Assembly (NCBI GenBank): GCA_034231615.1
Contig: CM067322.1
Coordinates: forward strand, 58,534,938 to 58,598,937
Direction: 5' to 3'
Origin: Meghimatium bilineatum
Taxonomy: Eukaryota > Mollusca > Gastropoda > Stylommatophora > Philomycidae
DNA: 64,000 nt
A program made the position numbers and the translations under genes. Under the pieces are notes generated by a model. It made no database searches, was not told the DNA's origin, and saw nothing but the letters and a program-made list of their open reading frames with translations. This document shows positions 1-62,660 of this stretch, one piece after another; positions within the stretch are counted from its first letter, which is position 1; the number at the start of each line of letters is the position of its first letter.

Positions 1-1935
1 TCAACACATTTCATAAATGTATCTAGTTTATCATTAGAAATATATTTTTTTGATTTTCAAACTTTTCAACACATCTCATAAATGTATCTACCGGTAGTTT
101 ATCATTAGAAATATATTTTTTTATTTTCTTTTTCAATCTTTTCAACACATCTCATAAATGTATCTACCGGTAGATTATCACTAGAAATATATCTTTTCAT
201 TTTCTTTTTTAAACTTTTCAACACATTTCATAACTGTATATAGTTTATCATTAGAAATATTTTTTTTTATTTTCTTGTGCAAACTTTTTAACATATTTCA
301 TAAATGTATCTAGTTTATCACTAGAAATATAGTTTTTGATTTTCTTTTCCAAACTTTTCAACACATTTCATAAATGTATCTAGTTTATCATTAGAAATAT
401 ATTTTTTTGGATTTTCAAACTTTTCAACACATTTCATTAGTGTATATAGTTTATCAATAGAAATTAATTTTTTGATTTTCCTTTTGAAATATTTCAACAC
501 ATTTCATAAATGTATCTAGTTTTTATCATTAGAAATATATTTTTGTGATTTTGAAACTTTTCAACACATTTCATAAATGTATCTAGCTTATCATTAGAAA
601 TATATTTTTTTGATTTTCAAACTTTTCAACTCATTTCATAAGTGTATATAGTTTATCAATAGAAATTAATTTTTTGATTTTCTTTTTGAAATTTTTCAAC
701 ACATTTCATAAATGTATCTAGTTTTTATCATTAGAAATAAATATTTTTCATTCTCAAACTTTTCAACACATTTCATAAATGTATCTAGTTTATCAATAGA
801 AATATATTTTTTTGATTTTCAAACTTTTCAACAAATCTCATAAATGTATCTACCGGTAGCTTATCACTAGAAATATATCTTTTCATTTTCTTTTTGAAAC
901 TTTTCAACACATTTCATAAATGTATATAGTTAATCATTAGAAATATTTTTTTTAATTTTCTTGTTCAAATTTTTTCAACATATTTCATAAATGTATCTAG
1001 TTTATCACTAGAAATTTATTTTTTGAATTTCTTTTCCAAACTTTTCATTACATAAATGTATCTAGTTTAACATTAGAAATATCTTTTTAAAATTTTCTTT
1101 TCCAAACTTTTCAACACATTTCATAAATGTTTCTTGTTTATTATTAGAAATATATTTTAAATTTTCTTTTTCAAACTTTTCAACATATTTCATAAATGTA
1201 TCTAGTTTATCACTAGACATATATATTTTTTGATTTTTTTTCCAATCTTTTCAACACATTTCATAAGTGTATATAGTTTATCAATAGAAATTAATTTTTT
1301 GATTTTCTTTTAGAAATTTTTCAACACATTTCATAAATGTATCTAGTTTTTATCATTAGAAATATATTTTTTTAATTTTGAAACTTTTCAACACATTTCA
1401 TAAATGTATCTAGTTTATCATTAGTACTATATTTTTTTGATTTTCTTTTTCAAAAATGTCAACACATTTCATAAATGTATCTATTTTATCATTAGAAATA
1501 AAAAAATTATTTTGTAACTTTTTAGCACATCTTATAAATGTATCTACCGGTAGTTTATCACTAGAAATATATTTTGTGATTTTCATTTTCAAACTTTTCA
1601 ACACATTTCATAAATGTATCTAGTTTATCATTAGAATTATATTTGTTTATTTTCTTTTTCAAACTTTTCAACACATTTCATAAATGTATCTAGTTTATCA
1701 TTAGAAATATATTCTTTGATTTTCTTTTTTGAAACTTTTTAACACATTTCATAAATGTATCTAGTTTATCATTAGAAATATATTTGTTTATTTTCTTTTT
1801 CAAACTTTTCAACATATTTCATAAATGTATCTAGTTTATCACTAGTAATATATTTTGTGGTTTTCATTTTCAAACTTTTCAACACATTTTATAAATGTAT
1901 CTAGTTTATCATTAGAAATATATTTTTTGAATTTT
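1..1935. repeat. AT-rich minisatellite, unit about 65-76 bp
   Basis: About 28 head-to-tail copies of a unit built on TCATAAATGTATCTAGTTTA followed by a T-rich spacer. The first periods measured are 65, 76, 76, 70 and 70 bp. The longer units partly reflect an ACCGGTAG insertion. Because period lengths are not multiples of three, this is not a protein repeat, although the minus strand reads locally as NDKLDTFMKCVEKFE. It lies next to the ankyrin remnant and the Polinton fossil and shares their AT-rich composition. Confidence 0.9.
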
Positions 1936-3094: not shown

Positions 3095-4235
3095 CTTTGT
3101 AAAAATATTAAAATTTTGGGCCCTTTTCTGTAATTCTTGTTCATAAAAAGAACCTATAATTTCTTCACCATTTTAATCCCTTTTTTTTTATATGTTATAG
3201 GGTTTGTACATTTAATTTCACTAATAACAAATATTTCTGTTGTCCATCTATTTGTATAACCTTTTTCAAATATTCCTGTTTTCTTTATTATTCTTACTCA
3301 AATCTCCATCTTTAAATTTTAACTTTATTAATTTTGAGCATGACATGTTTTCAATAGAATCACTTACACCAAATAAATGTTCATAAACATTTTTTTCATT
3401 TTCTTTTTTACTACCTTCAACATTTTTATTGAAGAATGTTTAGTATTATTATAAGTATTTACTAATTAATCTAAAACATTATAGTATTTATTTCTGTTAT
3501 TAGCAGTAAAATATAAAACATCTTTTGTGTCAGTTCCATTCCCTCTTTCAACAATACAGCTGTTTTCTTCATTTTCTGTAGAATAAATATTTATATTATT
3601 TTCTTCTAATAGTTTTCATATTATTGTTATGAAATTCCTTACCTTTATCAACCCAAAGATATAAAGGTTTTCTTTTACTATCACATTAAAAGATATGACA
3701 CCTTATTGAAGACCTTGAGGGTAAAGTCAAAGGGAAGCGAGCAAGAGTTAAGCAGAGATACAAGTGGGAGGGTAACATCACACGTGGACAGGTTACAGTC
3801 TAGCAGAGTGCACCACCAAGACAAGAGACAGGAGATGTTGGAGATACGTTGCAGCCAACCTTCGTTGCGGAGACGGCACATCATGATGATGATGATTACT
3901 ATCCTTAAATACCTTTTTAAATGCTTCAGAAACACCAATTTCACTTTTATTTTTTAATAGGTATTGCCCATGCATATTTACTAAATACATCTATAACAGT
4001 TAATAGAAATTTATAATGTTTATTTTCTTTTGAATACATTGACACATCAACTAAATCAGCTGCCCCATATTTCATCAATACCATTTACAATTGCTTTTCT
4101 TTTAGGAAACTTTTTAATAATAGGTTTATGTAATTCATTTGCTAAATCACTTGACTAATTAATTCCTGATCCTAAAATTGGATTATATAAATACCTAATG
4201 CTTTTAATAAGTCTAGATTAATTTTACTCATTTAA
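3095..4235 (-). pseudogene. Polinton integrase fossil
   Basis: Minus-strand frames carry the Polinton integrase signature: an N-terminal stretch with LHKPIIKKFPKRKAIVNGID near 4100, the rve core TVIDVFSKYAWAIPIK near 3980, and a C-terminal chromodomain-like region around 3100-3300. In intact relatives this enzyme joins the element ends to host DNA. The region is broken and holds an R1 LINE tail. Confidence 0.85.
3685..3898 (+). mobile_element. R1 LINE 3' tail in the integrase fossil
   Basis: Matches the R1 family (compare 42528-43258): the tail encoding an arginine-rich GRQRYKWE-type segment and the 3' end GGAGACGGCAC followed by an ATGATGATG run. It is 5'-truncated and inserted opposite to the integrase reading direction. 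Confidence 0.85.
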
Positions 4236-4239
4236 AATA

Positions 4240-4445
4240 TATACTAAAAATAAACACGGAAAAAGTATGTAGAAAATGTCATATTTTAAAACCATATTCC
4301 GAATATTCAAAAGAAAGTAAAGTTAAAAATGTTTATCGAGCATCTAGTAATGAGTGTTGTAAACCAATAAAACAAGAATATTATAAAAACAATAAAGAAA
4401 AATATAAAGAAGTTTATAATAAGTTTATTGAAAGACATTCAGATT
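4240..4445 (+). pseudogene. Small zinc-binding ORF in the Polinton block
   Basis: The plus strand reads VCRKCHILKPYSEYSKE followed by a lysine-rich helix (EYYKNNKEKYKEVYNKF). Paired CxxC cysteines followed by a charged helix resemble the zinc-binding N-terminal domain often placed before HNH nuclease domains in phages and large DNA viruses. No HNH core is visible. It lies between integrase and polymerase in the same AT-rich block and is treated as part of the fossil. Confidence 0.4.
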
Positions 4446-4992
4446 AAATATTATTTATTAAAAAAGTTACCCTAAAAATGGCTGAAGAAAATCCACAAAT
4501 AAAACATGTTATAAATAAATAAGGAAAAAATGTTGATAAATATAGTATTTATACAGAATAGAGTATTTATAATTTTATATATATATATATATATAGTATT
4601 GATAAATTTATAGTATTTTTATAGTGTATAGTATATATATATATAAATATATATAATAGATATTTTAATCGTATAAAAAAATAGAGTGAGAGATTATGCG
4701 GATAATTTTAATAATGGAAGTAAAAAGCTAAATATTATAATTCATTGTGTTTTTGATAAAACATATATTGTAGTTTATTATAATGCTGGTTTTCGACTAA
4801 TTCCATGAATCATTTTGATATTATATATGATGAAATCAGAGATCATTTTATAGATTGGATTGATAACTTTAATCAAAAAGGAAGTGGTAATGTATTTTAT
4901 GAAATGTTTAAAACAACAGTAGTATTAGTAAAAGTAAGAACAATGAGAGGATCTTCATATTTCGAAATTCCTTTTAAAAGTAGTTATATAAT

Positions 4993-5016
4993 CATCATCA
5001 TCATCAGGTGTCATGC
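4993..5016 (-). mobile_element. Extremely truncated R2 LINE 3' end (24 bp)
   Basis: Only about 24 bp of the R2 3' terminus (reverse of GCATGACACCTGATGATGATG) is present. It is flanked by a 22-bp target-site duplication (4971-4992 and 5017-5038) with one mismatch. It interrupts polymerase-coding sequence. Confidence 0.8.
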
Positions 5017-5176
5017 CTTTTAAAAGTACTTATATAATAAATATACAAAATAAAGATGACAAATATTTTTTGTGGTGTATAATTTGTTATATGTTGAGAA
5101 TTGAACATAACATAAGAAATCCTCATAGAGTATCTAATTATAAAGATTAGGAAGATTGTATAAATATGGAAGGAAT

Positions 5177-5338
5177 CCGCCGAAGACGGATGTGTTGAGC
5201 CACTGGCGCAAATAAAACGGCAACACAATGCATTTCCATTCTCTGGACTATATTCAACTGGAAATCTTGTAGGACCATTGTCTTGTTACAAGAGAAATCC
5301 AGCAGGAGTTTGAGAATGAACGCTGAAGAAGAAAGAAG
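5177..5338 (+). mobile_element. SINE-A copy with 14-bp duplication
   Basis: Full-length SINE-A from CCGCCGAAGACGGATGTGTT to the GAAGAAGAAAGAAG tail, bounded by AATATGGAAGGAAT at 5163-5176 and 5339-5352. One of the best copies for defining the family ends. Confidence 0.95.
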
Positions 5339-5939
5339 AATATGGAAGGAATAGAATATCCAATTAGATTAAATGATTCTGTGTTTGATCAATTTAAAGA
5401 TAATAACTATGTTAGAGTAAATAATTCAGTGTTTGATAGATTTGAAAATAATAATCCTGAAATCGTGTTTAATATATTTGCATTAAAAAAGCAAGATGAT
5501 TTGAAATCAATTTATCCTTTCATTTATCATGTTTTACTGAAGAAAGAGAACACATAATAGATTTATTATATGTTGAGCAAGATAGAAATACTCATTATTG
5601 TTTAATACTCATTATTGTTTAATTACTTCTTTAGGTTCAATTATGATCATAATAAAGTTTTTCCTTGTAGAAGATGTTTACAACCATATTTCTCTAAGAA
5701 ATCTTTATTAAATCATCTGATAGATCCTTTATCTAAACTTATAGTACCTGAAAAGGGAACAATATTGAAATTTGAAAATCACCATTTTAAATTAAAGTTA
5801 CCATTTGTTTTTTATTGTGATTTTGAATCTGTAAATATTCTTATTTCTTCTCTTCAACCAAATCCTACTAATTCATATACAGAAAATGTATTTAAGCATG
5901 AAGTATATTCACATGGAATTCAAGTATCCTCATATATAC

Positions 5940-6076
5940 GTGAGAAAATATTAGACAGTTTGACAGCCTGGCACGGCAAGGAAACAACAACGACCGTGAT
6001 ACATAATACTGTGGACAGAGAGCTGTGGAGAGCCATGACTGCCTACGCCAGCTGGCTTGCGCCTGATGATGATGAT
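5940..6076 (+). mobile_element. R2 LINE 3' tail
   Basis: Matches the last part of the R2 family (compare 10560-10704): a frame with DSLTAWHGKETTTT and ending in a GCCTGATGATGATGAT 3' end. 5'-truncated insertion in the polymerase fossil; a short TCATATA duplication flanks it. Confidence 0.85.
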
Positions 6077-6316
6077 TTTCATATAATTTCATCTTATATA
6101 TTTTACTCTGGTATAGATGCAAAAGAAAAATTTGTTGAAATTACAAACATATAGATAGGAAATTAAATTACTTTACTAGAAAAACCAATAAATGCAAACT
6201 TACACAGCTGAATGTTAGATATGTAAAGAAAAATTTCCATAAAACAAAATAATAGTAAAAGGACATAAATATCATAATTGTAATGAAATCTGCACTAAAG
6301 AATTTATTATACTTGA

Positions 6317-6930
6317 CCCCATCAAGGCCAGCACTGTGCAGTGGTGATGGGGCTTAGTTCAGCCATCAGGGGCTGGAAACTAAGACTGGTCGGGCAGTCC
6401 CACACGAGCAGGACGATAGTCCGGTCCAAGTAAGAAGAGTGCTGATGACGGAGGCATCCAGCCAAAAGGCGTACAAATAATCAGGATGCTGCGCACAAAA
6501 CACAATGGAAACATGTCTGTATTTATAAATAGTTATGGTGCCTGCCTTGTGGCAGACGTTCAGGCAGGGACGGTGCCGGGCCCTATACCTCGAAAGGGCC
6601 CAACCTCAGCTACTGGAAGTCCTAACAGATCAGAACAAGTTATAATTCTATGGCTCAGAACAGGACACAACGGACTCCGCAGTCACATGTATACAAAGTT
6701 CAAGATTGGCAACACAGCCATGTGTACATGTGGACAGGCAGCACAGAGTGCCAAACATATACTTCAAGAGTGTTCTGAGCATGAAATGCTGAGGCAGACA
6801 TATTGGCCAGAGGAAACAACACTGGAATCAAAGCTCTATGGGACACTGTCTGAACTACAAAAGACAGTGAGTTTTATTAAGGAGACAGAATTACAGATAT
6901 AGACATGTTTCAAGTGAACAAAAGAAGAAG
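6317..6930 (+). mobile_element. N1 (I-clade) LINE 3' fragment
   Basis: Encodes the end of an I-clade LINE ORF2: LWLRTGHNGLRSHMYTKFK, then a zinc-knuckle CxCGxxxxxxxHxxxxC segment and a LYGTLSELQKTVSFI tail that closes at a stop near 6900. The 3' end is AAAAGAAGAAGAAT. The polymerase-coding sequence resumes directly afterward, with an ATTATACTTGA duplication at each side. Confidence 0.85.
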
Positions 6931-7155
6931 AATAATTATACTTGATACAAAAATAAGAGAACATAATCATTTTAATAGAAAATATAGAGGCGCTGCATGC
7001 CAATCATGTAAACATTCTAAAATTATTCCAGTATTTTTTCACAATGGAAGTAGATATGATTTTCAATTTATTATAGAAGAATTAAAGAAATATGAAAACG
7101 ATGATCAGAAGGTTACAAGAATATATTTCTATTGAATATGGAAGTTCTTATAGAA

Positions 7156-7658
7156 AAGTAGCTTCAATGACATGAGGAAAATATTAACATCTAAACAAAT
7201 TACAAACAAGTTAAAAATGAGAATTATAAAATGCTATATCTACTCTATTTTAATGTATGGCTCAGAAACATGGACACTAAATAAACAATTATAAGACAGA
7301 ATTGATGCATTTGAGATGTAGGTATATAGAAGAATAGGGAGAACATCATGGAAAGATAAGAAAACAAATAGAGGTGCTATAGACACTTAATATGAAGAAA
7401 GAACTACTAAGAGAAATAAAGATCAGGAAAATAAAATATTTTGGTCACATTAAAAGACATGACCTTATTGAAGACTTTACATGAGGGCAAAGTCAAAGGG
7501 AAGCGAGCAAGAGGTAGGCAGAGATACAAGTGGAAGAGTAACATCACACGATGGACAGGTTACAGTCTAGCAGAATGCACCACCAAGACAACAGACATGG
7601 GATGTTGGAGATCCGTTGCAGCCAACCTTCGTTGCGGAGACGACACTTGATGATGATT
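7156..7658 (+). mobile_element. R1 LINE 3' fragment
   Basis: Codes for the RT thumb and tail of family R1: KMRIIKCYIYSILMYGSETW, RIGRTSWK, then an arginine-rich tail, ending CGACACTTGATGATGATT. It has in-frame stops and frameshifts compared with the better copy at 42528-43258. Inserted in the polymerase fossil. Confidence 0.85.
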
Positions 7659-9589
7659 TAGAGAAAATTAAGATTTCTTGATAGTTATAGATTCTTGACA
7701 ACTTCAGTTGATATTTCTAAAGGAATGTTAGATGAAGATTTTACATTTTTGAATAAAAATTTTAATGAAAAAGAATATAATGCATTAAAATATTTAAATG
7801 ATAAAAATGAAAGAACATTCAAAGGAATTTATCCATATGAATATATTGGTTCTATAGAAAATTTAAAGAAACAATTGCCTCTAATTGATAAATTTTATTC
7901 AACATTTAGACAAGAAGGAATTACAAAGGAAAATATGAACATGCACAAAAAATTTGGAAAACATTCAATTGTAAAACTTTTCACGATTATCATGATATTT
8001 ATTTACAAACAGATGTATTAATTCTAGCAGATGCTTTTGAGAAATTTAGAGAATTCAATTAAAAATAGGAAATTGATCCATGTTATTGTTTCTCTCTACC
8101 TGGATTAACATGGCAATGTGGATTAAAATATACAGGAGTTGAATTATAATTATTATCTGATACTCATATGATTTTAATGTATGAAAAATCAATAAGAGGT
8201 GGATTTTCAGAAGTATTAGGAAAAAGATTGCCAAAAGTATTTTATAAACAAACACCAAATTATGATGATGGAAATAAAATTATTGAAGATTTTGAATGCA
8301 AAGACATTTTAGATCTTTTAAAGAAAAAAAAAAGGAGAAAAATTAGATATTAGAAAATTTCTTAAATATTGTTATTTACAATATTTGGATGCAAATAATT
8401 TATATGGATGGTCAGTGTCACAACTATTACCAATAGGAGATTATAGATGGGAAAACCCTGAAAAGTTTATAAGACACACAGGAAGATATATAATTGAAGT
8501 TGATTTAGAATACACAAATGAATGTAAAAGAAAAATATTTAAATATCCTTTAGCACCTGAAGGAATAATAACTAAAAGAAAAGAATTATATCAATATCAA
8601 TTGAATTTATCGGGTGAAGAGAAATTAGGAAAGGTTCCCAAATTGCAATTCGATTTTAAAAATTAAGAATGATATGTTCTTCATTATAAAGTATTGAAGG
8701 TTCTATTTATCTCTTGGAATGGAAGTAAGCAAAATTCATAGAATTATTTATTTTAAAGAAGAAGCTTGGTTGAAACCATACATTGATTTTAACACAAAAC
8801 AAAGAAAGAAAGCAAAATCTGAATCTGAGAAAGATCTACCAAAAAATATGAATTGTTCATTCTTTGGAAAGACAATAGAAAATATTAGAGAACGAGTTAA
8901 TTTAAAACTAGTTACTAATAAAAAGGAGGCAATTAAATTATATTCTAAACCATCTTTTATAGACGTGATATTTTTTAATAACAATTTTATTGGAATACAA
9001 AATATTAAACCATCAATTAAATTTAACAAACCAATCTATTTGGGGATGTGTATTCTTGATCTTAGCAAATTATTGATGTATGAGTTTTGTTATAATAAAT
9101 TTACTAAACAATTTCCAGATAATGAAATTTTATATGGAGATATGGACAGTTTAGTTTTAAACATATATACTAATGATTTATATAACGAATTAGAAAATAT
9201 GAAAGATGAATTAGATACAATGATTATCCAAAATATCATCCATTATATTCTGAAACAAATAAAAAATTTGTAGGAAAATTTAAAGATGAATTAAACGGAA
9301 AAACAATGACAGAATTTATAACATTAGGAAGTAAAGCATATTCATTTAAAACATTAGGTGTTGAAGAAGAAAAGAAAGAAATAAAAGGCGTTGTCAAAAT
9401 CAACAATTAAAAAGAAATAAAATTTGAAGATTATAAAAGCTATTTATTAAATTCCACAGTACAATATAACAAAATGTATACTATGAATTCTGAAAAACAT
9501 GAAATGTTTATAAATGAAATAAATAAAAAATCATCACCTTTTGATGATAAAAGATAATATATGTAAAAATGGAATAACAACTTATCCAT

Positions 9590-10005
9590 TTGGTTTTAAT
9601 TAATTTTTTATTTCTTTTAAAAACTGTAAACATAAATTACTGTATTAAAAGTAAGTATTTGATCAGTAAAATATTGTATATCTCCTAGTATTTCACGAAG
9701 ATAATCTATTAATTCTAATGGTGGTTGAATTCCAAAACTATCCAAATATATTTTATCATTATTATTTTTAGTTGTATTTTATACCATGCAACCCAATGAG
9801 TACCTTTTGTTTTATCAGTTAAATCGCCATCTAAATTCATTATTCCACATTCTTTTTTTATTTGATTTTTTTGTTCTTGAAGTTCTGTTCTTATAAATAC
9901 ACCTCTAAAATTTGGTATTTTAAATTTTTTAACAGCATCTAATAGTTAAAAGTTTGTAAGAGGTTCATTTGGTAATTTTATATTATCTATTTCTACTAGG
10001 TTATC
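9590..10005 (-). pseudogene. Polinton adenain-like protease fossil
   Basis: The minus strand reads FKIPNFRGVFIRTELQ, then ECGIMNLD and GTHWVAWYK. The NFRGVF, ECGI.NLD and THWV stretch is the hallmark of the C5/Ulp1-like cysteine protease of Polintons, which in relatives matures capsid proteins. It is broken and cut on its upstream side by the R2 insertion at 10010. It lies convergent with the polymerase gene. Confidence 0.8.
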
Positions 10006-10009
10006 TAGT

Positions 10010-10704
10010 AGTCAGAGAAATTAAAGAGAAAGGCCCCTCTTCTTAAATATCAAGAAAACCGAAGTAATGGTTATTTCAAAGAAACAAAATAACGCACCTT
10101 GCAAGATCAAAGTGAATGATGTATTAAAACAGGTCGCCCAATTCAAATATTTAGGTACAAGGATTACGGCAGATGAAAGAAGTTCAACAGAAATAAGAAG
10201 CAGAATAGGACAGGCAAAAACAAAATTCAGAAAAATGAAAAATATACTGTGTAATATGACCTTGTCATTAGAGGTGAGAAAGAGAGTTCTGCAGTGCTAT
10301 ATAACCCTTATACTAACATATGGGTGCGAGTCTTGGACAATAAACAAACTGGAAATTGGGAAATTAGAGGCAACAGAGATGTGGTTCTACAGACAATGCT
10401 GAGAATACCATGAACTGACAGAAAAACTAATGTAGAGGTGTTGGAAGAGTCAAATGCGAAACAGACCTTAATCAACAATATAAGAAAAAGGCAATCTTCT
10501 TTTTTTGACCACTTCATGAGACAGGTTGGTTTAGAGAACATAGTCACAACAGGCAAAATTGACAGAAAAGGTGAGAAAATATTAGACAGTTTGACAGCCT
10601 GGCACGGCAAGGAAACAACAACGACTTTGATACATAATACTGTGGAAAGAGAGCTGTGGAGAGCCATGACCGCCTACGCCAGCCGGCATGGCACCTGATG
10701 ATGA
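10010..10704 (+). mobile_element. R2 LINE 3' fragment
   Basis: Encodes the RT end and tail of R2: KKTEVMVISKKQNNAPCKIK, QFKYLGTRITADERSSTE, YGCESWTINK, then a C-terminal tail ending AYASRHGT and a CCTGATGATGATG 3' end. The reading frame is open for 111 codons and then broken by indels. It is one of the longest single R2 pieces in the window. Confidence 0.9.
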
Positions 10705-10754
10705 TGCTGACTACATTATCATAACTTTGTTCTATCATTTTTATTATTGTAAAA

Positions 10755-10934
10755 TGACAGCAATGGCTGAAATGTTATACTGTGTAAAATGTAGAAAGAA
10801 AACAGATACTTCAGATTTAGAATATTCAAAAAAGCAAAAATAATAGAAATATGTTACAGGGTATGTGTGTGTTAATCTGTGGAACTATAAAAATTAAATT
10901 CATTAAAGCTTCAGAAGTAGTTTATGATGGCTGT
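10755..10934 (+). pseudogene. Polinton zinc-ribbon protein fossil
   Basis: Starts MTAMAEMLYCVKCRKKTDTS and continues with a second cysteine pair around 10865-10890, matching the small zinc-ribbon proteins (YCVKCRKKT...CxxCG type) found in Polintons beside the PLA2-like gene. Broken, with a SINE-A just downstream. Confidence 0.7.
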
Positions 10935-10948
10935 AATTTAAATAATAT

Positions 10949-11108
10949 GTTCTTCTTCTTCAGCTTTCATTCTCAAACTCCCGCTGAATTCTCTTGTAGC
11001 AGGACCGTTGTCCTACTAGATTTCCAGTAGGATGTAGTCCAGAGAATGGAAAGGCGTTGTGTCGCCGTTTTATTTGCGCCAATGGCCTGACACATCCGTC
11101 TTCGGCGG
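10949..11108 (-). mobile_element. SINE-A copy with 14-bp duplication
   Basis: Reverse-oriented SINE-A (TTCTTCTTCAGC ... CGTCTTCGGCGG) bounded by AATTTAAATAATAT at 10935-10948 and 11109-11122. It sits at the junction of the zinc-ribbon and PLA2-like pieces. Confidence 0.95.
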
Positions 11109-11449
11109 AATTTAAATAATATAATAAACTACCATTTGAATAATTATACCAGGTCATAATTTTACAGATCCTGGAACTAATTTAAAGAAAAGGTTAAAAG
11201 ATCCATATGGTAATCCACCAGATTTTACAACACAACCTTGGAGTAAACCAATTAATAGAGTTGATGAAGCTGCTATGAATCATGGCATCTGTTATTTACA
11301 AAATGAAGATAGGAAAACTAGAAATGAAGTTTGTGATAAGAAAATGTTACAAGATTTAAATATATTTAATACTACTATAAGAGAAAGACTTGATATAGGA
11401 ATTGTTAGTAATATTATTCAAGGAAAAATTGCATTAGGAATGGGATAGT
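11109..11449 (+). pseudogene. Polinton PLA2-like domain fossil
   Basis: Reads as the phospholipase A2-like domain seen in Polinton/adintovirus proteins and in parvovirus VP1: FTDPGTNLKKRL-type loop near 11165, then PWSKPINRVDEAAMNH, KTRNEVCDKKML and a terminal IIQGKIALGMG. In relatives the domain is a capsid-associated lipase thought to help membrane crossing. It follows the zinc ribbon, the gene order known in Polintons, and is treated as a fossil. Confidence 0.8.
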
Positions 11450-12536: not shown

Positions 12537-12664
12537 ACGAGATCCCAATCTTTGAAAGTTTGTTCCAATTCCTGCATGAGATCCAACAATTTTTTACAGA
12601 AGTAGGGCTCAAACCTAACATCATCTTCAAAGATCAGTATCTTTTGGTAGTTTCTGGCAATCAT
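12537..12664 (-). CDS. COLGALT exon with EDDVRFE motif
   Basis: 128 bp: acceptor ...TTTTTCTTGAAG, donor CTCGT|GTAAGT. Encodes QKILIFEDDVRFEPYF and ends DWDLV, matching the glycosyltransferase family 25 catalytic region with its acidic EDD motif. Its acceptor side abuts a 31-bp minisatellite. The following exon should start with one base completing a valine codon and then the tyrosine/glycine-arginine-lysine segment, but none was found to the left. Confidence 0.85.
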
Positions 12665-14225: not shown

Positions 14226-14714
14226 AGATTCCATATGAAATCTGGAGAATTTGTGTCATGGTTGGTTACAGCTTGGCTGCGTCTTTGAACCTGACATGTC
14301 CAAATTCAACATTATATTTTTTGGTCACTTTGACCTATAAATGGCAGAGCCATCTCTACCCCAAAACTTTCTTAGCTGCATCTTATGATATATATAGCAG
14401 TACAGTGCAGATATATTTTTTTTCTCCTTTCGTAACACTGTAACACATGGACACAAGCATTACTGACATGAAGAGGGAATGAATGCAAAGTGAGGAGTTT
14501 GTATTCAGGAAGTGGAGAAATGAAGATGGCTCATGTCTGTAGTGAAGACTGCAGGATCAAAAGAGAAATCACAAAACTATGACCTACTGACCTCTTCCCA
14601 GATTTGATAATGGCTCAGAAAGCAGCCGATTTCACTCATTGTCAGTGATCTGAAAATAAAGTGTACAAACAAAGAAATTATGATTCTATCTGTTTACAGA
14701 AAAACATTTTTTAT

Positions 14715-18419: not shown

Positions 18420-18494
18420 CTTCCATGATATGGATCGGCAAAGCCTGGCAACATCTTGACCCCTTGCTTCTCCAGGTAGGAACTATTAAGTTCT
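18420..18494 (-). CDS. COLGALT exon, MLPGFADPY
   Basis: 75 bp: acceptor CTATTCCAAACAG, donor GGAAG|GTAAGA. Reads ELNSSYLEKQGVKMLPGFAD then PYHG, matching the conserved region between the DGK and GEIGCFLSHY motifs. Phase agrees with the exon ending at 20045, which completes the K of VDAVDGK. Confidence 0.85.
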
Positions 18495-20044: not shown

Positions 20045-20151
20045 TTTCCATCTACAGCATCCACAATTTTGGCATCTATCTCCAAGTAGTCAAAGGCTGT
20101 CAGCATCTGAAGTCTTCTAGCCAGCTGTCGTTTCAAGTTGATCATGTATAT
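20045..20151 (-). CDS. COLGALT exon, IYMINLKR
   Basis: 107 bp: acceptor CATATTTGCAG, donor GGAAA|GTTAGT. Reads IYMINLKRQLARRLQML and ends KIVDAVDGK. The YMINL.R...R...L motif is a signature of family 25 glycosyltransferases. A donor four bases further on would leave the next exon out of frame, so GTTAGT was chosen. Confidence 0.9.
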
Positions 20152-21187: not shown

Positions 21188-21280
21188 CAAACTACAACAA
21201 AATGACACATAACTTGCCTGATCAGATCCTATGTATACAAACTACAACAAAATGACACATAACTTGCCTGATCAAATCCT
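21188..21280. repeat. 43-bp direct duplication over a splice donor
   Basis: Two copies, 50 bp apart (21188-21230 and 21238-21280), start CAAACTACAACAAAATGACA. Each contains the same minus-strand exon end and GC donor (CTGATCAG|GCAAGT), differing by one base. Only the copy at 21262-21267 is joined to the rest of the exon. Confidence 0.85.
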
Positions 21281-21347
21281 AGTTTGTCTTTAGGCTTCTC
21301 TGGTATATACACATGAGGTGAACTGTACAGAGGAGGAACTTCTTGTA
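21268..21347 (-). CDS. COLGALT exon, KLGFDQ, GC donor
   Basis: 80 bp: acceptor TAATATTTTCAG, donor GATCAG|GCAAGT. Reads QEVPPLY then SSPHVYIPEKPKDKLGFDQ, matching the vertebrate KTPDKMGFDE region. No GT donor fits the phase, so this is a GC-AG intron. Phase 0 joins it to IYMINLKR. Confidence 0.9.
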
Positions 21348-21408: not shown

Positions 21409-21442
21409 CTCCAGGATCAGCTTCTCTGCACTGTAGACGAAT
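21409..21442 (-). CDS. COLGALT short exon
   Basis: 34 bp: acceptor AACGCTTACAG, donor CTGGAG|GTAAGC. Reads IRLQCREADPG plus one base, which completes the valine codon with the next exon. It corresponds to the variable stretch before the SSPHVY segment. Its phase fits downstream but not the donor at 21966 upstream. Confidence 0.65.
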
Positions 21443-21965
21443 CTGTAAGCGTTTGGTATGTCAGGTCTCAGATCAGTTAAATATTTACTGTCCGCACAAA
21501 TTCAACTCTGATTCAATAAATACTTCACAAACACATTTCAGATCATCTAAATCATAAGTTCTCAACTTTTCTCGAGTCACAACCCCATTTTATTTAGAAG
21601 TAAAGTGACCCATGGTCAAAAACATTTTATATAAGGCTTTCAATATGGAAAAAATATTCTATATCGTTCTAAGATTGTTCAGAATATCTTCTACTTCTGC
21701 ATACAAGACATATGGCTCTCAAGTAACCAACACAAATTTATTTTTTGATTTCCACCATAGAGCATGATGTATGATGTGCTACTATTTCATTTGAGGCATA
21801 TATAATTCAATACAATTTAAACATGACATATTTAATGTTTAGCTTGCTATTGTAACTCGTTAACAATTATTTCTTCATAATTTACATTTGAGTTTTTGCC
21901 AACGTATGTTAACCATGTGTGTGTGTCGCATCAGTCTATTAACCGAGAACACAGAAACTACTCAC

Positions 21966-22351
21966 ATTGATGAGTTATATTTGGGTCAAAGGGCATGAAC
22001 TCATGAACCACTAACCTACCATAAGTTATATTTAATATTACATAATCACCAGTGTGTTGCAGGGGAGCAAAGAATAGCACACTGTTTACCTTCAACGCAT
22101 GTCGTAAAAGGCGACTAAGGAGGTTATGGGATGGAGTTGGCAGTCCCATCCCATATAGGATCAGTGACCCAAAGCCATGCTGAAGTCGGATGTGTCTGGC
22201 CGAAAGGCGCAGATATCGCAGCAATGCTGTAAACCATGACACAACGCATTCCGTTCTCCGGACTACATCCTGCTAATCTGCAGGAGTTTGAGAATGAACG
22301 CAGAAGAAGAAGATATTACAAAATGTATGATATTATTCCAACTTTGAGACA
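21966..22351 (-). CDS. COLGALT exon interrupted by SINE-B
   Basis: Acceptor ATTTTAATCAG at 22352, donor CATCAAT|GTGAGT at 21960-21965. The first part reads SQSWNNIIHFVI and the part after the SINE reads YGRLVVHEFMPFDPNITHQ, equivalent to the vertebrate YGFLPVPLRAHS region. A 266-bp SINE-B with a 12-bp duplication separates them. The phase from the 25041 donor fits the acceptor chosen. Confidence 0.7.
22047..22312 (+). mobile_element. SINE-B inserted in a COLGALT exon
   Basis: Full-length SINE-B, GTGTTGCAGGGGAGCAAAGA to GAACGCAGAAGAAGAAG. Duplication ATATTACATAAT / ATATTACAAAAT (22035-22046 and 22313-22324, one mismatch). Other SINE-B copies give the same ends, so the insertion boundaries are reliable. 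Confidence 0.9.
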
Positions 22352-22389: not shown

Positions 22390-22655
22390 GTGTGTTGCCT
22401 GGGCCTCAAAAGAGAGCCAACAATAGCAAGACCGTTTACCTTCCATGCATGTCACAAGAGGCAACTAGGGATGTTATAGGTTGGAGTTGGCTGTCCCATC
22501 CCATACAGGTTAAAGTGACCCAGAAGCCATGATGAAGTCAGATCGATAGGTGCAGATACCTCAGCAAAACTATAAACCATGATACAATACATTTCATTCT
22601 CCAGACTGCATCCTGTGAATCTGCAGGAGTGTAGGGACGCACACAGAAGAAATCA
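22390..22655 (+). mobile_element. SINE-B copy
   Basis: Begins TGTGTTGCCTGGGCCTCAAA and runs to a CACACAGAAGAAAT end; landmarks in order but diverged. Confidence 0.85.
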
Positions 22656-25040: not shown

Positions 25041-25246
25041 CTAAAGCTTTCACAGAATGAGCAAATAAAATGATGTCATCTCTTGGACCACTATATCCCA
25101 CTGGAGGTCTATTGTAGGAAAGATTCGGTGAAAGGTAGTGATGCAGGTTGATAAGAATAGCAGAGTGCACCATAGGAACAGGAAACACCTCCAAAAATCT
25201 CCCGGTCTACAATGGATAGATAGTTACTACTACGAATGTAGTAGCC
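25041..25246 (-). CDS. COLGALT exon, PMVHS, with frame break
   Basis: 206 bp: acceptor CCTCCTCAG, donor GCTTTAG|GTAAGT. The first part reads GYYIRSSNYLSIVDRE and the second, in the +1 frame, VFPVPMVHSAILINL, then GPRDDIILFAHS. Both parts match COLGALT (YYKRT...VPMVHS...DDIIVFA). The break falls in GAGATTTTTGGAGG, where the run of five T has one base too many for a single frame. Acceptor and donor phases both fit if one base is surplus. Confidence 0.8.
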
Positions 25247-27924: not shown

Positions 27925-28000
27925 CTTTTCAGACATTCCTCCCCAGAAATTGGAATAGTAGCCCTCAACAGAAGCATTTAGCATAGGACCAATTACCAAT
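27925..28000 (-). CDS. COLGALT exon, YSNFW
   Basis: 76 bp: acceptor TTTGCTGTTGCAAG, donor GAAAAG|GTAAAC. Reads LVIGPMLNASVEGYYSNFWG then GMSEK, equivalent to [20 protein letters not shown]. Phase fits the exons at 29724 and 25246. Confidence 0.9.
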
Positions 28001-28530: not shown

Positions 28531-28806
28531 GATGTCGTCCATGTGTTGCCTGGGCCAGAGAGGGGAGCAAATAGCAACACTGTTTACCTTCCATGAATGT
28601 TGTAAAAGGCGACTAAGGAGGTTATGGGATGGAGTTGGCTGTCCCATCCCATATAGAGTCAGTGACCCAAAGCCATGCTGAAGTCGGTTGTTTCAGGCTG
28701 AAAGGCGCAGATATCGCAGCAATGCTGTAAACCATGATACAATGCATTGCGTTCTCCAGAATACATCCTGCTTATCTACAGGAGTTTGAGAATGAATGCA
28801 GAAGAA
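28531..28806 (+). mobile_element. SINE-B copy, full length
   Basis: From GTCCATGTGTTGCCTGGGCC to GAATGCAGAAGAAGAC, all landmarks present; a good reference copy. Confidence 0.9.
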
Positions 28807-29212
28807 GACAAAAAGTGGATGAAACAAATAGTCATAATCACTTGTGATGGACAAACAATAACAACAACAACATGCATGGAAGGTAAACAGTGTTGCTATT
28901 CTTTGCTACACTTTCGGATCCTACCACATATGTATTCAAGAAGTTAACACTCTAACAAATATAAAACTGGACTGACATCATAAGTCATCGCTGTCTTATA
29001 AAAGATATTGTCACAAGTGGATAATAATAATAATAACAGTTGTGTACCCATAACATTTTCATCTGGCATGCTGAAGGTCTTACCAGCGGACCATCAGACC
29101 AACCAGAATGCAACAGTAAATACCTAGTAGATGACGTGCAAATATAGTGATGCTTTCCTTTCGTGGAAGACTCGCGTAACTTCATCTATGCAGCTATATG
29201 TTCATTCCCTCT

Positions 29213-29723: not shown

Positions 29724-29788
29724 TTTTTCTGCCCCATAAGAATTTGAAGAGTTCTATTATTTTCTAGTGTGACATCAGCATCGATCAT
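29724..29788 (-). CDS. COLGALT exon, MIDAD
   Basis: 65 bp: acceptor ATCTTTTTGATAG, donor CAGAAAAA|GTAAGT. Reads MIDADVTLENNRTLQILMGQ then K, matching the DADN..L.N..TL..LI region that holds a conserved DxD in this family. Confidence 0.85.
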
Positions 29789-32055: not shown

Positions 32056-32318
32056 GAGCTTCTAGTTCAGGGTGCAAAAAACAGTGCCATTGTCACCTGC
32101 CAAGCATATCGTAAGAGGCGACTAAGGAGGCTTTGGGATGAAGTTTGCTGTCCCATCCTAGGATGATCAAAGTGACCTAGAAGCCTTGCTGACATTAGAT
32201 GTGTCCTTCCAAAAAGCATAGACATCACAGCAAAGCTGTAAACCATGACACATTGAATTCTGTTTTCAGGACTACATCCTGCTAATCTACAGGAGTTTGA
32301 GAACAAATGCAGAAGATG
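32056..32318 (+). mobile_element. SINE-B copy
   Basis: CAAGCATATCGTAAGAGGCG, GGGATGAAGTTTGCTGTCCC, CTACATCCTGCTAATCTACA and a CAGAAGATGAAG end. Confidence 0.85.
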
Positions 32319-32384
32319 AAGTCACACAATCCGACAATTAATGTGACATATACTAGAAAATGTTCTTTCAAAATCGGTTACATT

Positions 32385-32552: not shown

Positions 32553-32668
32553 AAACAGATAGTCAGCCCAAATATTCCGAGCATGTACTAGAGCCTTTTC
32601 CCTCAGACCAATCACATTTGCAAACCGTTTTTCTGTCCAATCACACGGAGATTCTTCATCTGTATATC
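32553..32668 (-). CDS. COLGALT exon, WADYLF
   Basis: 116 bp: acceptor GTTCATCTTTAG, donor CTGTTT|GTGAGT. Reads YTDEESPCDWTEKRFANVIG then REKALVHARNIWADYLF, equivalent to the [20 protein letters not shown] segment. Phase 2 in, phase 0 out, as neighbouring exons need. Confidence 0.9.
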
Positions 32669-33423: not shown

Positions 33424-36400
33424 AAGAATCTCTAAAAGTTTTGTAACTATTGAGTGGTGTCATAAAGTTCAAGAATCTGCAAGAGTTTTGTTTTGTAACT
33501 ATTGAGTGGTGTCATAAAGTTCAAAAATCTGCAATAGTTTTGTTTTGTAACTATTGAGTGGTGTCATAAAGTTCAAGAATCTGCAAGAGTTTTGTTTTGT
33601 AACTATTGAGTTGTGTCATAAAGTTCAAGAATCTGCAAGAGTTTTGTTTTGTAACTATTGAGTGGATTAATAAAGTTCAAGAATCTGCAAGAGTTTTGTT
33701 TTGTAACTATTGAGTGGTGTCATAAAGTTCAAGAATCTGCAAGAGTTTTGTTTTGTAACTATTGAGTTGTGTCATAAAGTTCAAGAATCTGCAAGAGTTT
33801 TGTTTTGTAACTATTGAGTGGTGTCATAAAGTTCAAGAATCTGCAAGAGTTTTGTTTTGTAACTATTGAGTGGTGTCATAAAGTTCAAGAATCTGCAAGA
33901 GTTTTGTTTTGTAACTATTGAGTGGTGTCATAAAGTTCAAGAATCTGCAAGAGTTTTGTTTTGTAACTATTGAGTGGTGTCATAAAGTTCAAGAATCTGC
34001 AAGAGTTTTGTTTTGTAACTATTGAGTGGTGTCATAAAGTTCAAGAATCTGCAAGAGTTTTGTTTTGTAACTATTGAGTGGTGTCATAAAGTTCAAGAAT
34101 CTGCAAGAGTTTTGTTTTGTAACTATTGAGTGGTGTCATAAAGTTCAAGAATCTGCAAGAGTTTTGTTTTGTAACTATTGAGTTGTGTCATAAAGTTCAA
34201 GAATCTGCAAGAGTTTTGTTTTGTAACTATTGAGTGGATTAATAAAGTTCTAGAATCTGCAAGAGTTTTGTTTTGTAACTATTGAGTGGTGTCATAAAGT
34301 TCAAGAATCTGCAAGAGTTTTGTTTTGTAACTATTGAGTGGTGTCATAAAGTTCAAGAATCTGCAAGAGTTTTGTTTTGTAACTATTGAGTGGTGTCATA
34401 AAGTTCAAGAATCTGCAAGAGTTTTGTTTTGTAACTATTGAGTGGTGTCATAAAGTTCAAGAATCTGCAAGAGTTTTGTTTTGTAACTATTGGGTGGTGT
34501 CATAAGGTTCAAGAATCTGCAAGAGTTTTGTTTTGTAACTATTGAGTGGTGTCATAAGGTTCAAGAATCTGCAAGAGTTTTGTTTTGTAACTATTGAGTG
34601 GTGTCATAAAGTTCAAGAATCTGCAAGAGTTTTGTTTTGTAACTATTGAGTGGTGTCATAAAGTTCAAGAATCTGCGAGAGTTTTGTTTTGTAACTATTG
34701 AGTGGTGTCATAAAGTTCAAGAATCTGCAAGAGTTTTGTTTTGTAACTATTGAGTGGTGTCATAAAGTTCAAGAATCTGCAAGAGTTTTGTTTTGTAACT
34801 ATTGAGTGGTGTCATAAAGTGCAAGAATCTGCAAGAGTTTTGTTTTGTAACTATTGAGTGGTGTCATAAAGTTCAAGAATCTGCAAGAGTTTTGTTTTGT
34901 AACTATTGAGTGGTGTCATAAAGTTCAAGAATCTGCAAGAGTTTTGTTTTGTAACTATTGAGTGGTGTCATAAAGTTCAAGAATCTGCAAGAGTTTTGTT
35001 TTGTAAAAGAGTTTTGTTTTGTAACTATTGAGTGGATTAATAAAGTTCAAGAATCTGCAAGAGTTTTGTTTTGTAACTATTGAGTGGTGTCATAAAGTTC
35101 AAGAATCTGCAAGAGTTTTGTTTTGTAACTATTGAGTGGTGTCATAAAGTTCAAGAATCTGCAAGAGTTTTGTTTTGTAACTATTGAGTGGTGTCATAAA
35201 GTTCAAGAATCTGCAAGAGTTTTGTTTTGTAACTATTGAGTGGTGTCATAAAGTTCAAGAATCTGCAAGAGTTTTGTTTTGTAACTATTGAGTGGTGTCA
35301 TAAAGTTCAAGAATCTGCAAGAGTTTTGTTTTGTAACTATTGAGTGGTGTCATAAAGTTCAAGAATCTGCAAGAGTTTTGTTTTGTAACTATTGAGTGGT
35401 GTCATAAAGTTCAAGAATCTGCAAGAGTTTTGTTTTGTAACTATTGAGTTGTGTCATAAAGTTCAAGAATCTGCAAGAGTTTTGTTTTGTAACTATTGAG
35501 TGGATTAATAAAGTTCAAGAATCTGCAAGAGTTTTGTTTTGTAACTATTGAGTGGTGTCATAAAGTTCAAGAATCTGCAAGAGTTTTGTTTTGTAACTAT
35601 TGAGTGGTGTCATAAAGTTCAAGAATCTGCAAGAGTTTTGTTTTGTAACTATTGAGTTGTGTCATAAAGTTCAAGAATCTGCAAGAGTTTTGTTTTGTAA
35701 CTATTGAGTGGTGTCATAAAGTTCAAGAATCTGCAAGAGTTTTGTTTTGTAACTATTGAGTGGTGTCATAAAGTTCAAGAATCTGCAAGAGTTTTGTTTT
35801 GTAACTATTGAGTGGTGTCATAAAGTTCAAGAATCTGCAAGAGTTTTGTTTTGTAACTATTGAGTGGTGTCATAAAGTTCAAGAATCTGCAAGAGTTTTG
35901 TTTTGTAACTATTGAGTGGTGTCATAAAGTTCAAGAATCTGCAAGAGTTTTGTTTTGTAACTATTGAGTGGTGTCATAAAGTTCAAGAATCTGCAAGAGT
36001 TTTGTTTTGTAACTATTGAGTGGTGTCATAAAGTTCAAGAATCTGCAAGAGTTTTGTTTTGTAACTATTGAGTGGTGTCATAAAGTTCAAGAATCTGCAA
36101 GAGTTTTGTTTTGTAACTATTGAGTGGTGTCATAAAGTTCAAGAATCTGCAAGAGTTTTGTTTTGTAACTATTGAGTGGTGTCATAAAGTTCAAGAATCT
36201 GCAAGAGTTTTGTTTTGTAACTATTGAGTGGTGTCATAAAGTTCAAGAATCTGCAAGAGTTTTGTTTTGTAACTATTGAGTTGTGTCATAAAGTTCAAGA
36301 ATCTGCAAGAGTTTTGTTTTGTAACTATTGAGTGGATTAATAAAGTTCAAGAATCTGCAAGAGTTTTGTTTTGTAACTATTGAGTGGTGTCATAAAGTTC

Positions 36401-36706
36401 AAGAATCTGCAAGAGTTTTGTTTTGTAACTATTGAGTGGTGTCATAAAGTTCAAGAATCTGCAAGAGTTTTGTTTTGTAACTATTGAATCTGCAAGAGTT
36501 TTGTTTTGTAACTATTGAGTGGTGTCATAAAGTTCAAGAATCTGCAAGAGTTTTGTTTTGTAACTATTGAGTGGTGTCATAAAGTTCAAGAATCTGCAAG
36601 AGTTTTGTTTTGTAACTATTGAGTGGTGTCATAAAGTTCAAGAATCTGCAAGAGTTTTGTTTTGTAACTATTGAGTGGTGTCATAAAGTTCAAGAATCTG
36701 CAAGAG
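33424..36706. repeat. Large minisatellite, 52 bp x about 63
   Basis: Tandem unit containing GTAACTATTGAGTGGTGTCA and TTCAAGAATCTGCAAGAG. Almost all copies are identical or differ by one base. A variant with AGTGGATTAATAAAG starts at 33661, 34233, 35031, 35499 and 36331. It lies in the COLGALT intron between the SDHN and WADYLF exons. Confidence 0.98.
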
Positions 36707-36835
36707 TTGGGATGGGACAATGTGAAAGTCATTGATTGTATGCACCAGCTGGTATTAAATTAGACAAATAAACTCACAAATTATTTCCTTTAATTTTTAC
36801 GTCTATTAAATCTAATTTTTACAAAATACTTTTAC

Positions 36836-36948
36836 CTTTATTTTTGTGGTCAATTTTAACATCAACATGGTGGTATAAATGAGACACAGCCGACAGCCAT
36901 TCTGTCAACATTGCAGTTGAATTATCTACGTTGTGATCACTTCGAATC
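36836..36948 (-). CDS. COLGALT exon, SDHN
   Basis: 113 bp: acceptor TTCATCTCCTAG, donor AATAAAG|GTAAAA. Reads IRSDHNVDNSTAMLTEWL, then SAVSHLYHHVDVKID, matching the TDHN.DNT..L..WL..V..LYH.V segment of COLGALT. The first base completes a codon, probably tryptophan, from the missing exon 2. Confidence 0.92.
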
Positions 36949-43258: not shown

Positions 43259-43261
43259 ATA

Positions 43262-43437
43262 TGACCAAAAAGGCGTAGTTTTCTTTTTGTTATTGTGTTT
43301 AGTAACCAACACTCTGGAATCTTCAATGTGTTTATAATATCTGAGTTTCTAATTGTTTCCTTCCATGATATTCTAAATATCTTTCTGTAGCATTTCAGCT
43401 CGAAGGCGTTGATATTCTTTGCCGCTGTTTTACTTAC
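43262..43437 (-). mobile_element. RTE-like LINE fragment
   Basis: The minus strand reads NINAFELKCYRKIFRISWKE then CWLLNTITKRKLRLFGHI, the thumb-to-tail region (R4-like). Confidence 0.8.
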
Positions 43438-43589
43438 ACAGACGTGAAGATAGAATAGAGAAAACACTACATGGAAATCGGAACTAAAGCACTGTTCAAC
43501 TCGAGACAAGCCTCTAGTCAACGGTGATTTAAAATATATGTAAAGACACCGACTTGGACGAGGGGTCCATAATATTGGTGAATGACACC

Positions 43590-44030
43590 TCGGCTAAGAT
43601 GGCGAAGGAACTCAGGCCCAACTCTACTGTCGCGTTTTTCCTAAACCGGAATCTCATGGGGTTTATTGCTCACAAAGAGAAAGTTAACTCTATCATTTGC
43701 TGCATCTCTATCAACAGCAACTTATAACAATACGTTTATAGACCACACACACACAAAAACCCAGGATAATTCAAGTCCATGCTCCAACTGCCGAATACAA
43801 CGAAGAGGAAATATACGTATTTTATGTTTTAATACTGGAGGGAACTGTCGAATGTGGAAGAAGCAGAGCAGGGGAAATAAAGACATGGACAGACAACATC
43901 AAGGAATGGACAAGACAATGTTTATCATCACTCACCCGCATCAGTGAAGATAAAAATCGGTGGAGAACTATATGTTCTGAAGCCTACAATGTGGTACCTC
44001 TACGACCCTGACGGGTTGTGGGTTTATAGA
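43590..44030 (+). mobile_element. R3 LINE remnant: endonuclease piece joined to 3' tail
   Basis: 43755-43835 reads IQVHAPTAEYNEEEIYVFY, the conserved motif of the APE-type endonuclease. From 43830 it continues GTVECGRSRAGEIKTWTDNI and YNVVPLRP, the R3 tail. The RT is missing between them, an internal deletion. Confidence 0.75.
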
Positions 44031-44299
44031 TCGATAGCGGAATCATGTTCACAGATGAGGAATGCTTCAATACCTGATGGGTACATGAGCAATGCACCTA
44101 ATTACAGGAGACAAGTACACTAGCAGCGGAACACCTCATGCGAGACAGGTGTAGTCGACCCAAACCTAAATACTTGATTACCGCCTCCCCGGAGACTGAC
44201 ACCTGGGGACATGATTTGGCCTTAAATTCCAAAGGCACAATGGGTAATAAATCGTCGCAGCGTAGAGTCAATACACATATGTCACCTGGCTAGAAATAT

Positions 44300-44480
44300 G
44301 AAGGCTATTACGGGCTAAGGAAGCCCACCCGAATAACAGGCATGCCGAAATCGGATGTGCTGGACCGGGTGGTGCAAAATATCGCAGCTCTGCTGTGAAG
44401 TTGACAGCGCAACGTACTTCACGCTCACCTGCGGAAATCACAGTGACATTCGTTCTGGTTATCAAAGAGCGAACGTGGAA
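44300..44480 (+). mobile_element. SINE-C copy
   Basis: CATGCCGAAATCGGATGTGC, GTGCAAAATATCGCAGCTCT and GAGCGAACGTGGAACAAGAA; related to 17978-18108. Confidence 0.7.
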
Positions 44481-50475: not shown

Positions 50476-50524
50476 TTTCTCTGCGTTTGTTCTCATAATA
50501 CTGGATAATAGTACGAGTATGTAG

Positions 50525-61904: not shown

Positions 61905-62108
61905 TTGGTGTTTATCGCTGTCCATAATACGCTCAGCATGCATCCAGAGGCGAGGGCGGAGGTGCGGACCGTCCCAGGCGGCATCATTGGGAGGGCGGCA
62001 AATTTATTTTCGTCCAGTCTTTCAGAATCACTGACATATTTTTTAATGCCACAAGGGCGGAAAATTATGATTCCGCCCCGGGCGCTATTGACCCACGCTA
62101 CGCCACTG
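61905..62108 (-). mobile_element. hAT-like non-autonomous element end
   Basis: On the minus strand it begins CAGTGGCGTAGCGTGGGTCA then GCGCCCGGGGCGGAA, matching the CAGTGGCG...GCGCCCGGGG termini common in hAT elements. Opposite end not found. Confidence 0.5.
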
Positions 62109-62109
62109 T

Positions 62110-62660
62110 ACATATGTACACATTCGTACATATGTCTCTGTAATTAGTGTGAACGAAAATCGATGTAAGGCATTAAAAAGGGAGATCTGATAAAGCAGAG
62201 AGGGTAGAACCGGGGTTCATGAAGAGAAGAGATAAGGAGGTATGTGTGGATAAACCTCATGTAAGAGAATGTGGGAGGATGATAGCATTGGTTACAGGAG
62301 AAACTCTCTTATAACGTACATGGTCGTAATGGGTCCCTCGGTCCAGCAACAGCTTGCAAAGTCCCATGTGTGGCCACCAACCATCGCACATAGGCTCAAT
62401 TGTTTAAAGCATACGAACGATAGTGATGACGCAGAAAAGGGGCAGCAAGAAGATATAGCGCAATGACTGAGTGTAGAAAGGGTTGTGAGGGTTTAGTTGA
62501 AGGATAGTGCCTAGTTAATAGCATGGAGCTTAAGAGAACCAAGGTTTTGCATCATTCTGTTATCTAAGGATCCCCAGAATAGCGGGCGACTAAGCCAGTG
62601 ACTTGATTATCATGTTTGCCCATGTGGGATTGGCTATTGAAATGAAGAGCTACGAAGTTA
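62110..62660. other. No recognised feature
   Basis: Purine-rich sequence; nothing matched. Confidence 0.4.

Follow-up and report, generated by a model that had tools for sequence, protein, structure and literature searches.

Introduction

DNA transposons of the hAT superfamily have short terminal inverted repeats that begin with CAG or CAGTG. In maize, the outer hAT termini of two nearby Ac/Ds elements can mobilise the DNA between them as a macrotransposon, with an 8-bp duplication; among Ac macrotransposons, a 28-kb unit is reported to have been excised and a 10.3-kb unit to have increased in number (PMC9910405). The nearest animal case that we found is Teratorn of medaka, an element of 180 kb with 30–40 copies and a transposase gene, in which piggyBac is fused to a herpesvirus genome (PMC10175614). 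The Starship elements of fungi are described as very large, cargo-bearing and variable in size, as using a tyrosine recombinase-like gene and as reaching about 5 copies at most. Gene-capturing Helitrons and Pack-MULEs are DNA transposons that acquire fragments of host genes; full-length captures are called exceptionally rare (PMC6431247).

Here, we analyse 64,000 nucleotides from the slug Meghimatium bilineatum (assembly GCA_034231615.1, contig CM067322.1, positions 58,534,938 to 58,598,937), hereafter the window. The first 62 kb of this stretch form the right-hand part of one copy of a giant element with hAT-like ends. In contrast to the maize units, the slug unit measures about 180–620 kb, has about a hundred copies and lives in an animal, and its movement is inferred from the sequence. 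It shares with Teratorn the status of a giant animal DNA element, but it is bounded by hAT-like termini and an 8-bp duplication, and the portion read carries host-like DNA with introns. Very large and variable size and the presence of cargo are common to the slug element and the Starships, for which a tyrosine recombinase-like gene and a much lower copy number are described. Like the gene-capturing Helitrons and Pack-MULEs it appears to have taken up host gene sequence, and its COLGALT exons match about residues 36–528 of a vertebrate COLGALT protein used as a ruler. This gene resembles COLGALT1/GLT25D in its collinear exons, its Glyco_transf_25 domain and its best PDB matches, which are to procollagen galactosyltransferase 1, but differs in being SINE-interrupted, partly frameshifted, multicopy and apparently drifting.

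Results

A SINE interrupts a conserved COLGALT exon

The initial annotation of the window had described a SINE inside a conserved exon of a COLGALT-type gene, and this description was borne out. A SINE-like repeat at 22047–22312, antisense to the gene, splits an exon that has a fitting acceptor, phase and donor (Table 1). The acceptor, TTTTAATCAG, terminates at 22352 on the minus strand, and the previous exon ends in ...TTTAG/GTAAGT at 25041, one base into a codon, which is the phase that this acceptor needs and the one annotated. The GTGAGT donor assigned to the downstream piece is also present but is private to the window copy; all seven other copies read have GTGAGC and two extra bases before it. 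The two bases missing from the window lie at 21965–21972, just before the donor.

The 12-bp target-site duplication is found on both sides of the SINE, as annotated, but is imperfect, its two copies atattacataat and atattacaaaat being identical at 11 of 12 positions. This duplication, a simple 3′ tail (AGAAGAAGAAG) and a dispersed short family are the features by which we class the repeat as a SINE. Further copies, many of them diverged, lie elsewhere in the window (e.g., 22414–22651, 28561–28808, 20690–20438, and 32070–32321). As many of the longer copies start at about query base 11–19, the true 5′ end may sit some bases inside 22047. Inspection of the SINE by eye recognised no RNA polymerase III A or B box.

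The identity of the interrupted gene as COLGALT is solid. When joined, the window exons find PDB chains of procollagen galactosyltransferase 1 at E = 2.9e-40, Pfam Glyco_transf_25 was matched in three separate exons, and twelve exon blocks, with the split exon counted once, are collinear from 36.95 to 12.54 kb. Exon order was judged against the vertebrate ruler, most blocks being placed by chained alignment and the rest by eye. The domain and the collinear similarity along the protein expected of a COLGALT (GT25) gene are thus both present, whereas an uninterrupted coding sequence is not, given the SINE in the window exon and a frameshift in the window copy. Judged by eye, most exons have splice sites that appear usable.

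Two repeats were noticed around these exons. A 52-bp tandem array of ∼58 units occupies 33438–36708 in a COLGALT intron and is much shorter in the copies on contigs C14 and C7. The exon near 20.1 kb is repeated ∼12 times with a spacing of ∼1.46 kb in one copy, at C12:17755003-17772701, and similar clusters are found at C25:30752461-30803631 and C8:11902719-11921603.

Table 1. Features of the window and of the element copy that contains it (positions are those of the window unless a contig is given).
Feature	Position	Strand	Basis or remark
70-bp AT-rich satellite array inside the element	1..1935	+	continues at least 8 kb leftward
Broken Polinton/Maverick-like relic	4217..11445	+	PF08398 (PLA2-like) matched at 11140-11445; polymerase-like pieces judged by eye
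COLGALT exon (MIARNYQKILIFEDDVRFEPYF...), last in window	12537..12664	-	Pfam and chained alignment
COLGALT exon (SLTMSEIGCFLSHYQIWEE)	14592..14649	-	Pfam and chained alignment
COLGALT exon (NSSYLEKQGVKMLPGFADPYHG)	18420..18494	-	
COLGALT exon, GT25 domain start	20045..20151	-	Pfam and chained alignment
COLGALT exon (PPLYSSPHVYIPEKPKDKLGFDQ), GC donor	21268..21347	-	
COLGALT exon (DLRPDIPNAYRF...)	21409..21487	-	assigned by eye
Interrupted COLGALT exon, downstream piece, reads TYGRLVVHEFMPFDPNITHQ	21966..22034	-	donor GTGAGT from 21965
Target-site duplication, left copy	22035..22046	+	atattacataat
Target-site duplication, right copy	22313..22324	+	atattacaaaat
Interrupted COLGALT exon, upstream piece	22325..22351	-	acceptor AG at 22353-22352
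COLGALT exon (GYYIRSSNY...FPVPMVHSAILINL...), frameshifted in window copy	25041..25246	-	alignment
COLGALT exon (LVIGPMLNASVEGYYSNFWGGMS)	27925..28000	-	borders by eye
COLGALT exon, DxD motif (MIDADVTLENN...)	29724..29788	-	by eye against vertebrate ruler
COLGALT exon (YTDEESPCDWTEKRF...)	32553..32668	-	borders by eye
COLGALT exon (SDHNVDNSTAML...)	36836..36948	-	borders by eye
Right terminus of giant element, CAGTGGCGTAGCG read inward, 62108 being the last base	62096..62108	-	copy alignment
Flanking octamer TACATATG, duplicated target site	62109..62116	+	
Next COLGALT 3′ exon found, outside the window	C25:58457276-58457479		in the same element copy as the window, 90 kb beyond the final exon of the window

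The interrupted site is dispersed through the genome

The genome (1.61 Gb in 32 contigs) was searched with the interrupted site, 22035–22324. This gave at least 40 matches, the window included; 39 of those listed cover the full 290 bases and the remaining one 288, and the identity of the others to the window's site is 95–99%. A match over the full 290 bases points to a repeat larger than the SINE family, since the SINE family alone would give SINE-only matches. The flanks of seven copies align beyond the site. In five copies, each fetched over 40 kb, long blocks can be aligned to the window, mostly at 95–98%; homology runs over tens of kilobases, and substitutions amount to 1.7–1.9% outside exons and tandem arrays. 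The SINE and the same imperfect duplication are present in eight of the eight copies aligned at the DNA level.

In these eight and in the listed matches the SINE was read in the DNA itself; elsewhere its presence is suggested by the junction at the protein level. With a 36-residue query for the uninterrupted exon we obtained 101 matches (112 of 112 candidates scored), none of which starts before residue 7; an intact exon would begin matching at residue 1–2. The great majority (98 of 101) start at residues 7–12, that is, at the SINE junction, on 23 of the 32 contigs and in both orientations, and most of these 98 places share the same 49-residue open frame. Four of them start at residues 7–9, slightly upstream of the rest, and just one of the four is among the DNA-confirmed listed copies. 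A weak match to the uninterrupted exon was seen at C14:42132092 (E = 0.63). The copies beyond those read at the DNA level presumably carry the same SINE. This dispersion contradicts the reading of the insertion as a recent event private to one host gene.

Two copies have the 70-bp satellite abutting the sequence from window base 17123 or 19223 and lack both the Polinton relic and the final exons of the window.

The SINE insertion most likely preceded the spread

As all matches to the uninterrupted exon begin at residue 7 or later, the SINE was most likely in place before the element spread. The frameshift of the window copy, which lies in the preceding exon, has a narrower distribution. A search with that exon gave 78 matches (84 of 84 candidates scored), of which 29 are in frame, 42 are shifted, the window copy among them, and seven are partial or weak and belong to neither class; six of the 29 in-frame places contain stops. 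At the DNA level the shift was seen in five of five copies, including the window, and was absent in one other copy. The interrupted exon lies within 15 kb of the preceding exon at 24 of the 29 in-frame and 40 of the 42 shifted places, and seven in-frame and 22 shifted places coincide with DNA-confirmed SINE copies. Since the SINE-interrupted exon occurs in both classes, the frameshift seems to postdate the SINE and to mark one sublineage that includes the window copy. The annotated death of this gene copy by recent retroposition thus holds in part: the copy is dead or close to dead, but the insertion most likely predates a roughly hundred-fold spread.

Ends and size of the element

A probe at 59–60 kb of the window is dispersed likewise (42 matches, merged into 40 places), and the segment at 62.9–63.6 kb is unique at high identity, its other matches being at 82% or less. 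Between the window and the C7 copy, homology stops at window base 62108, at ...CTACGCCACTG, the complement of CAGTGGCGTAGCG. In both copies compared the right boundary falls exactly on this CAGTG terminus with different flanks beyond it, the adjoining octamer being TACATATG in the window copy and CCTTTAAG in the C7 copy. We searched the 1.6-Gb genome for each octamer joined to the terminus, allowing up to one mismatch and using reversed patterns as controls. For TACATATGCAGTGGCGTAG one exact match was found, at C25:58375459, upstream of the window on the same contig and strand, along with four one-mismatch matches elsewhere (control 1). For CCTTTAAGCAGTGGCGTAG the one exact match was at C7:14621124, again upstream on the same contig and strand, along with three one-mismatch matches (control 0). 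These sole exact matches give lengths of 221,579 bp for the window copy on C25 and 575,997 bp for the C7 copy.

An 8-kb stretch read at the left end of the window copy contains TACATATG and the 13-bp inverted repeat CAGTGGCGTAGCG, identical at both ends. Such a repeat starting with CAGTG is in good agreement with a hAT element, as is the 8-bp target-site duplication beside both termini in two of the two copies tested. Polintons/Mavericks have long terminal inverted repeats and a 6-bp duplication, and Teratorn-like elements have piggyBac ends and target TTAA. With 13-bp repeats and an 8-bp duplication the unit does not end as a Polinton/Maverick does, nor are its CAGTG termini those of a Teratorn-like element. 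About 0.5 kb inside the left end, part of the C-terminal hAT dimerisation domain is matched (PF05699; 20.5 bits, E = 4.2e-4), just short of the Pfam cut-off of 21.4 bits. No whole hAT transposase gene was seen in the parts of the element read, which are the smaller share of its 222 kb; hAT domains are abundant genome-wide (150 of 2569 candidates scored). Both ends of the window copy also have in common a 112-bp direct repeat of 88% identity.

A left-end probe gave at least 40 genome matches. For fifteen of the 40 listed right ends, a left end lies within 800 kb on the side and strand expected, compared with one on the wrong side and three on the opposite strand. The paired spans range from 180.5 to 617.7 kb with a median of 281.8 kb. 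One of them, of 440 kb on C12, overlaps another element: at C12:16313430-16753401 a 195-kb element on the minus strand is apparently located within or next to the plus-strand span, possibly as a nested insertion. No listed left partner was found for 25 of the 40 listed right ends, and for 18 of the 40 listed left ends neither a right end nor a SINE site was available as a partner within 700 kb; as pairing was done among the matches listed, unpaired ends are no evidence of absence.

The COLGALT 3′ exon that follows the window's last exon was found at at least 95 places, partial ones included, nine of which have a stop (150 of 260 candidates scored). It lies in gene orientation within 400 kb of 33 of the 40 listed SINE-bearing copies, at a median distance of 124 kb, and inside 10 of the 15 paired elements.

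Other content of the element

The satellite array at the left of the window extends over at least 9.9 kb in the window copy, the corresponding minimum for two other copies being 15.3 and 16.9 kb. The Polinton-like relic is internal to the element and common to other copies. It contains pieces which, from a reading by eye, we take to be polymerase- and protease-like; Pfam gave no match for them, a search for viral relatives of the polymerase-like piece at 8698–9270 confirmed none, and PDB and PHROGs searches with the polymerase-like pieces returned nothing usable. The PLA2-like domain in the relic is of a kind typical of some small DNA viruses and Polintons. Apart from weak noise, Pfam searches of other open frames yielded reverse transcriptases and a partial hAT domain, and the part of the element read has many SINEs and LINE pieces. 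Several LINE reverse transcriptases lie at 43260–51550, a segment that is unmatched in the five compared copies over the stretches fetched and was thus perhaps inserted after the window copy landed.

The cargo exons show no detectable selection

Among the fetched copies, exon variants comprised 30 replacement changes, three of them stops, and 14 silent ones, against a neutral expectation of 2.62:1 (p = 0.50); distinct variants were counted rather than loci, with 2 to 14 partly overlapping loci per exon block. Purifying selection on the cargo, which some exons that differ little from copy to copy might suggest, is unsupported by these counts. Substitutions were rarer in exons (63/4994) than elsewhere (2044/114508, a figure inflated by some unrelated LINE matches), a weak result in the opposite direction. 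With no selection detectable, the COLGALT exons in the copies examined apparently drift as dead passengers. The functional route of the initial annotation, in which the cell must splice the SINE out, is not supported, given the neutral exon variants, the frameshift and the 2-base difference of the window copy.

The second COLGALT locus for which that annotation proposed a search turned out to be about a hundred element-borne places. No separate host COLGALT was recognised in the genome searches, two of which scored 150 of 260 and 150 of 271 candidates, so that its absence is not proven; the weak match at C14:42132092 is a possible candidate. The best match to the preceding exon, C4:5781391, was considered as a host gene and proved to be an element copy, with 97.8% identity over 850 bases including intron. 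A Pfam search for Glyco_transf_25 gave 11 matches, all of them short exon matches.

Discussion

Taken together, we put a probability of roughly 80% on the reading that a giant hAT-type element spread with a SINE-interrupted, intron-bearing COLGALT gene on board, that the frameshift came later and that the exons are dead passengers. The SINE would have inserted once, antisense, into an exon of a COLGALT gene already carried, or soon afterwards taken up, by an element with the 13-bp terminal inverted repeat CAGTGGCGTAGCG, 8-bp target duplications and a size of about 180–620 kb. The element would then have spread to about a hundred dispersed places, with the interrupted exon copied along, and the neighbouring exon would have been frameshifted afterwards in the sublineage of the window copy. 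A hAT transposase, once encoded by the element or supplied in trans, probably moved the unit whole by recognising outer hAT ends 0.2–0.6 Mb apart and carrying all that lay between. Judging by the direct repeat common to both ends, the segment may be bounded by two small hAT elements of like orientation, as in the maize Ac macrotransposons. The introns with usable splice sites suggest that the gene came as chromosomal DNA and not as a retrocopy, and it was probably captured with its introns from the chromosome.

Seen at the window locus alone, the interrupted exon with its fitting phases, the frameshift and the private 2-base difference could be read as the species' own COLGALT gene killed there by a recent SINE insertion. 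We find this hardly credible, as the paired ends of a mobile element enclose the locus and the insertion is not private, the 290-bp site being matched at 40 or more places and the junction at 98. It is also very unlikely that the gene still works with the SINE spliced out through sites outside or inside it. The acceptor side is indeed little changed in the aligned copies (alignment reaches about base 22350), a GT donor is kept in the window and in the seven others, and most exon splice sites look usable, but the copies differ in their exons as expected without selection, some have stops and indels, and the frameshifted class and the stops among in-frame places further argue against function.

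The main rivals concern how the unit spread. A segment of 200–600 kb could have been duplicated by recombination or replication errors, with the hAT-like ends incidental; the part read does resemble ordinary chromosome, with SINEs, LINEs, satellites and an intron-bearing gene, the sizes vary widely, and the parts read hold no whole transposase gene. Such duplication would not, however, be expected to place the right boundary on the CAGTG terminus in both compared copies, or to repeat each flank beside a matching left terminus and nowhere else exactly, and the junction places are spread over both orientations and most contigs; we consider it improbable. An integrated large DNA virus with a captured COLGALT gene would fit the PLA2-like domain, and its size range and copy number would resemble those of Teratorn (PMC10175614). 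This origin is quite improbable, as the 62 kb read are mostly non-coding and rich in satellites and retroelements, the gene keeps long introns, the virus-like pieces are short and broken, and the open frames searched, with ∼150 kb of the element lying outside the part read, gave no recognisable gene of a herpesvirus or another large virus.

In a bolder form, about a hundred hAT-type transposons of 180–620 kb moved whole and spread an intron-bearing host COLGALT gene, and the species may have no other recognisable COLGALT locus, as the strong matches to COLGALT queries look like element copies. We regard this version as evenly balanced between right and wrong. Such a unit would be, to our knowledge, larger than any other animal DNA transposon. 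Our literature search found no description of a hAT-ended element this large, and we call the element undescribed on that basis alone.

The locus also illustrates a practical trap: at a single locus, a SINE in a conserved exon resembled the death of a gene, while the copies across the genome suggest an order of events and a passenger gene. If the unit moves whole, cut-and-paste transposition can mobilise animal chromosome segments of hundreds of kilobases, intron-bearing genes included, about a hundred times over, which would bear on the size limit of DNA transposons and on how host genes multiply.
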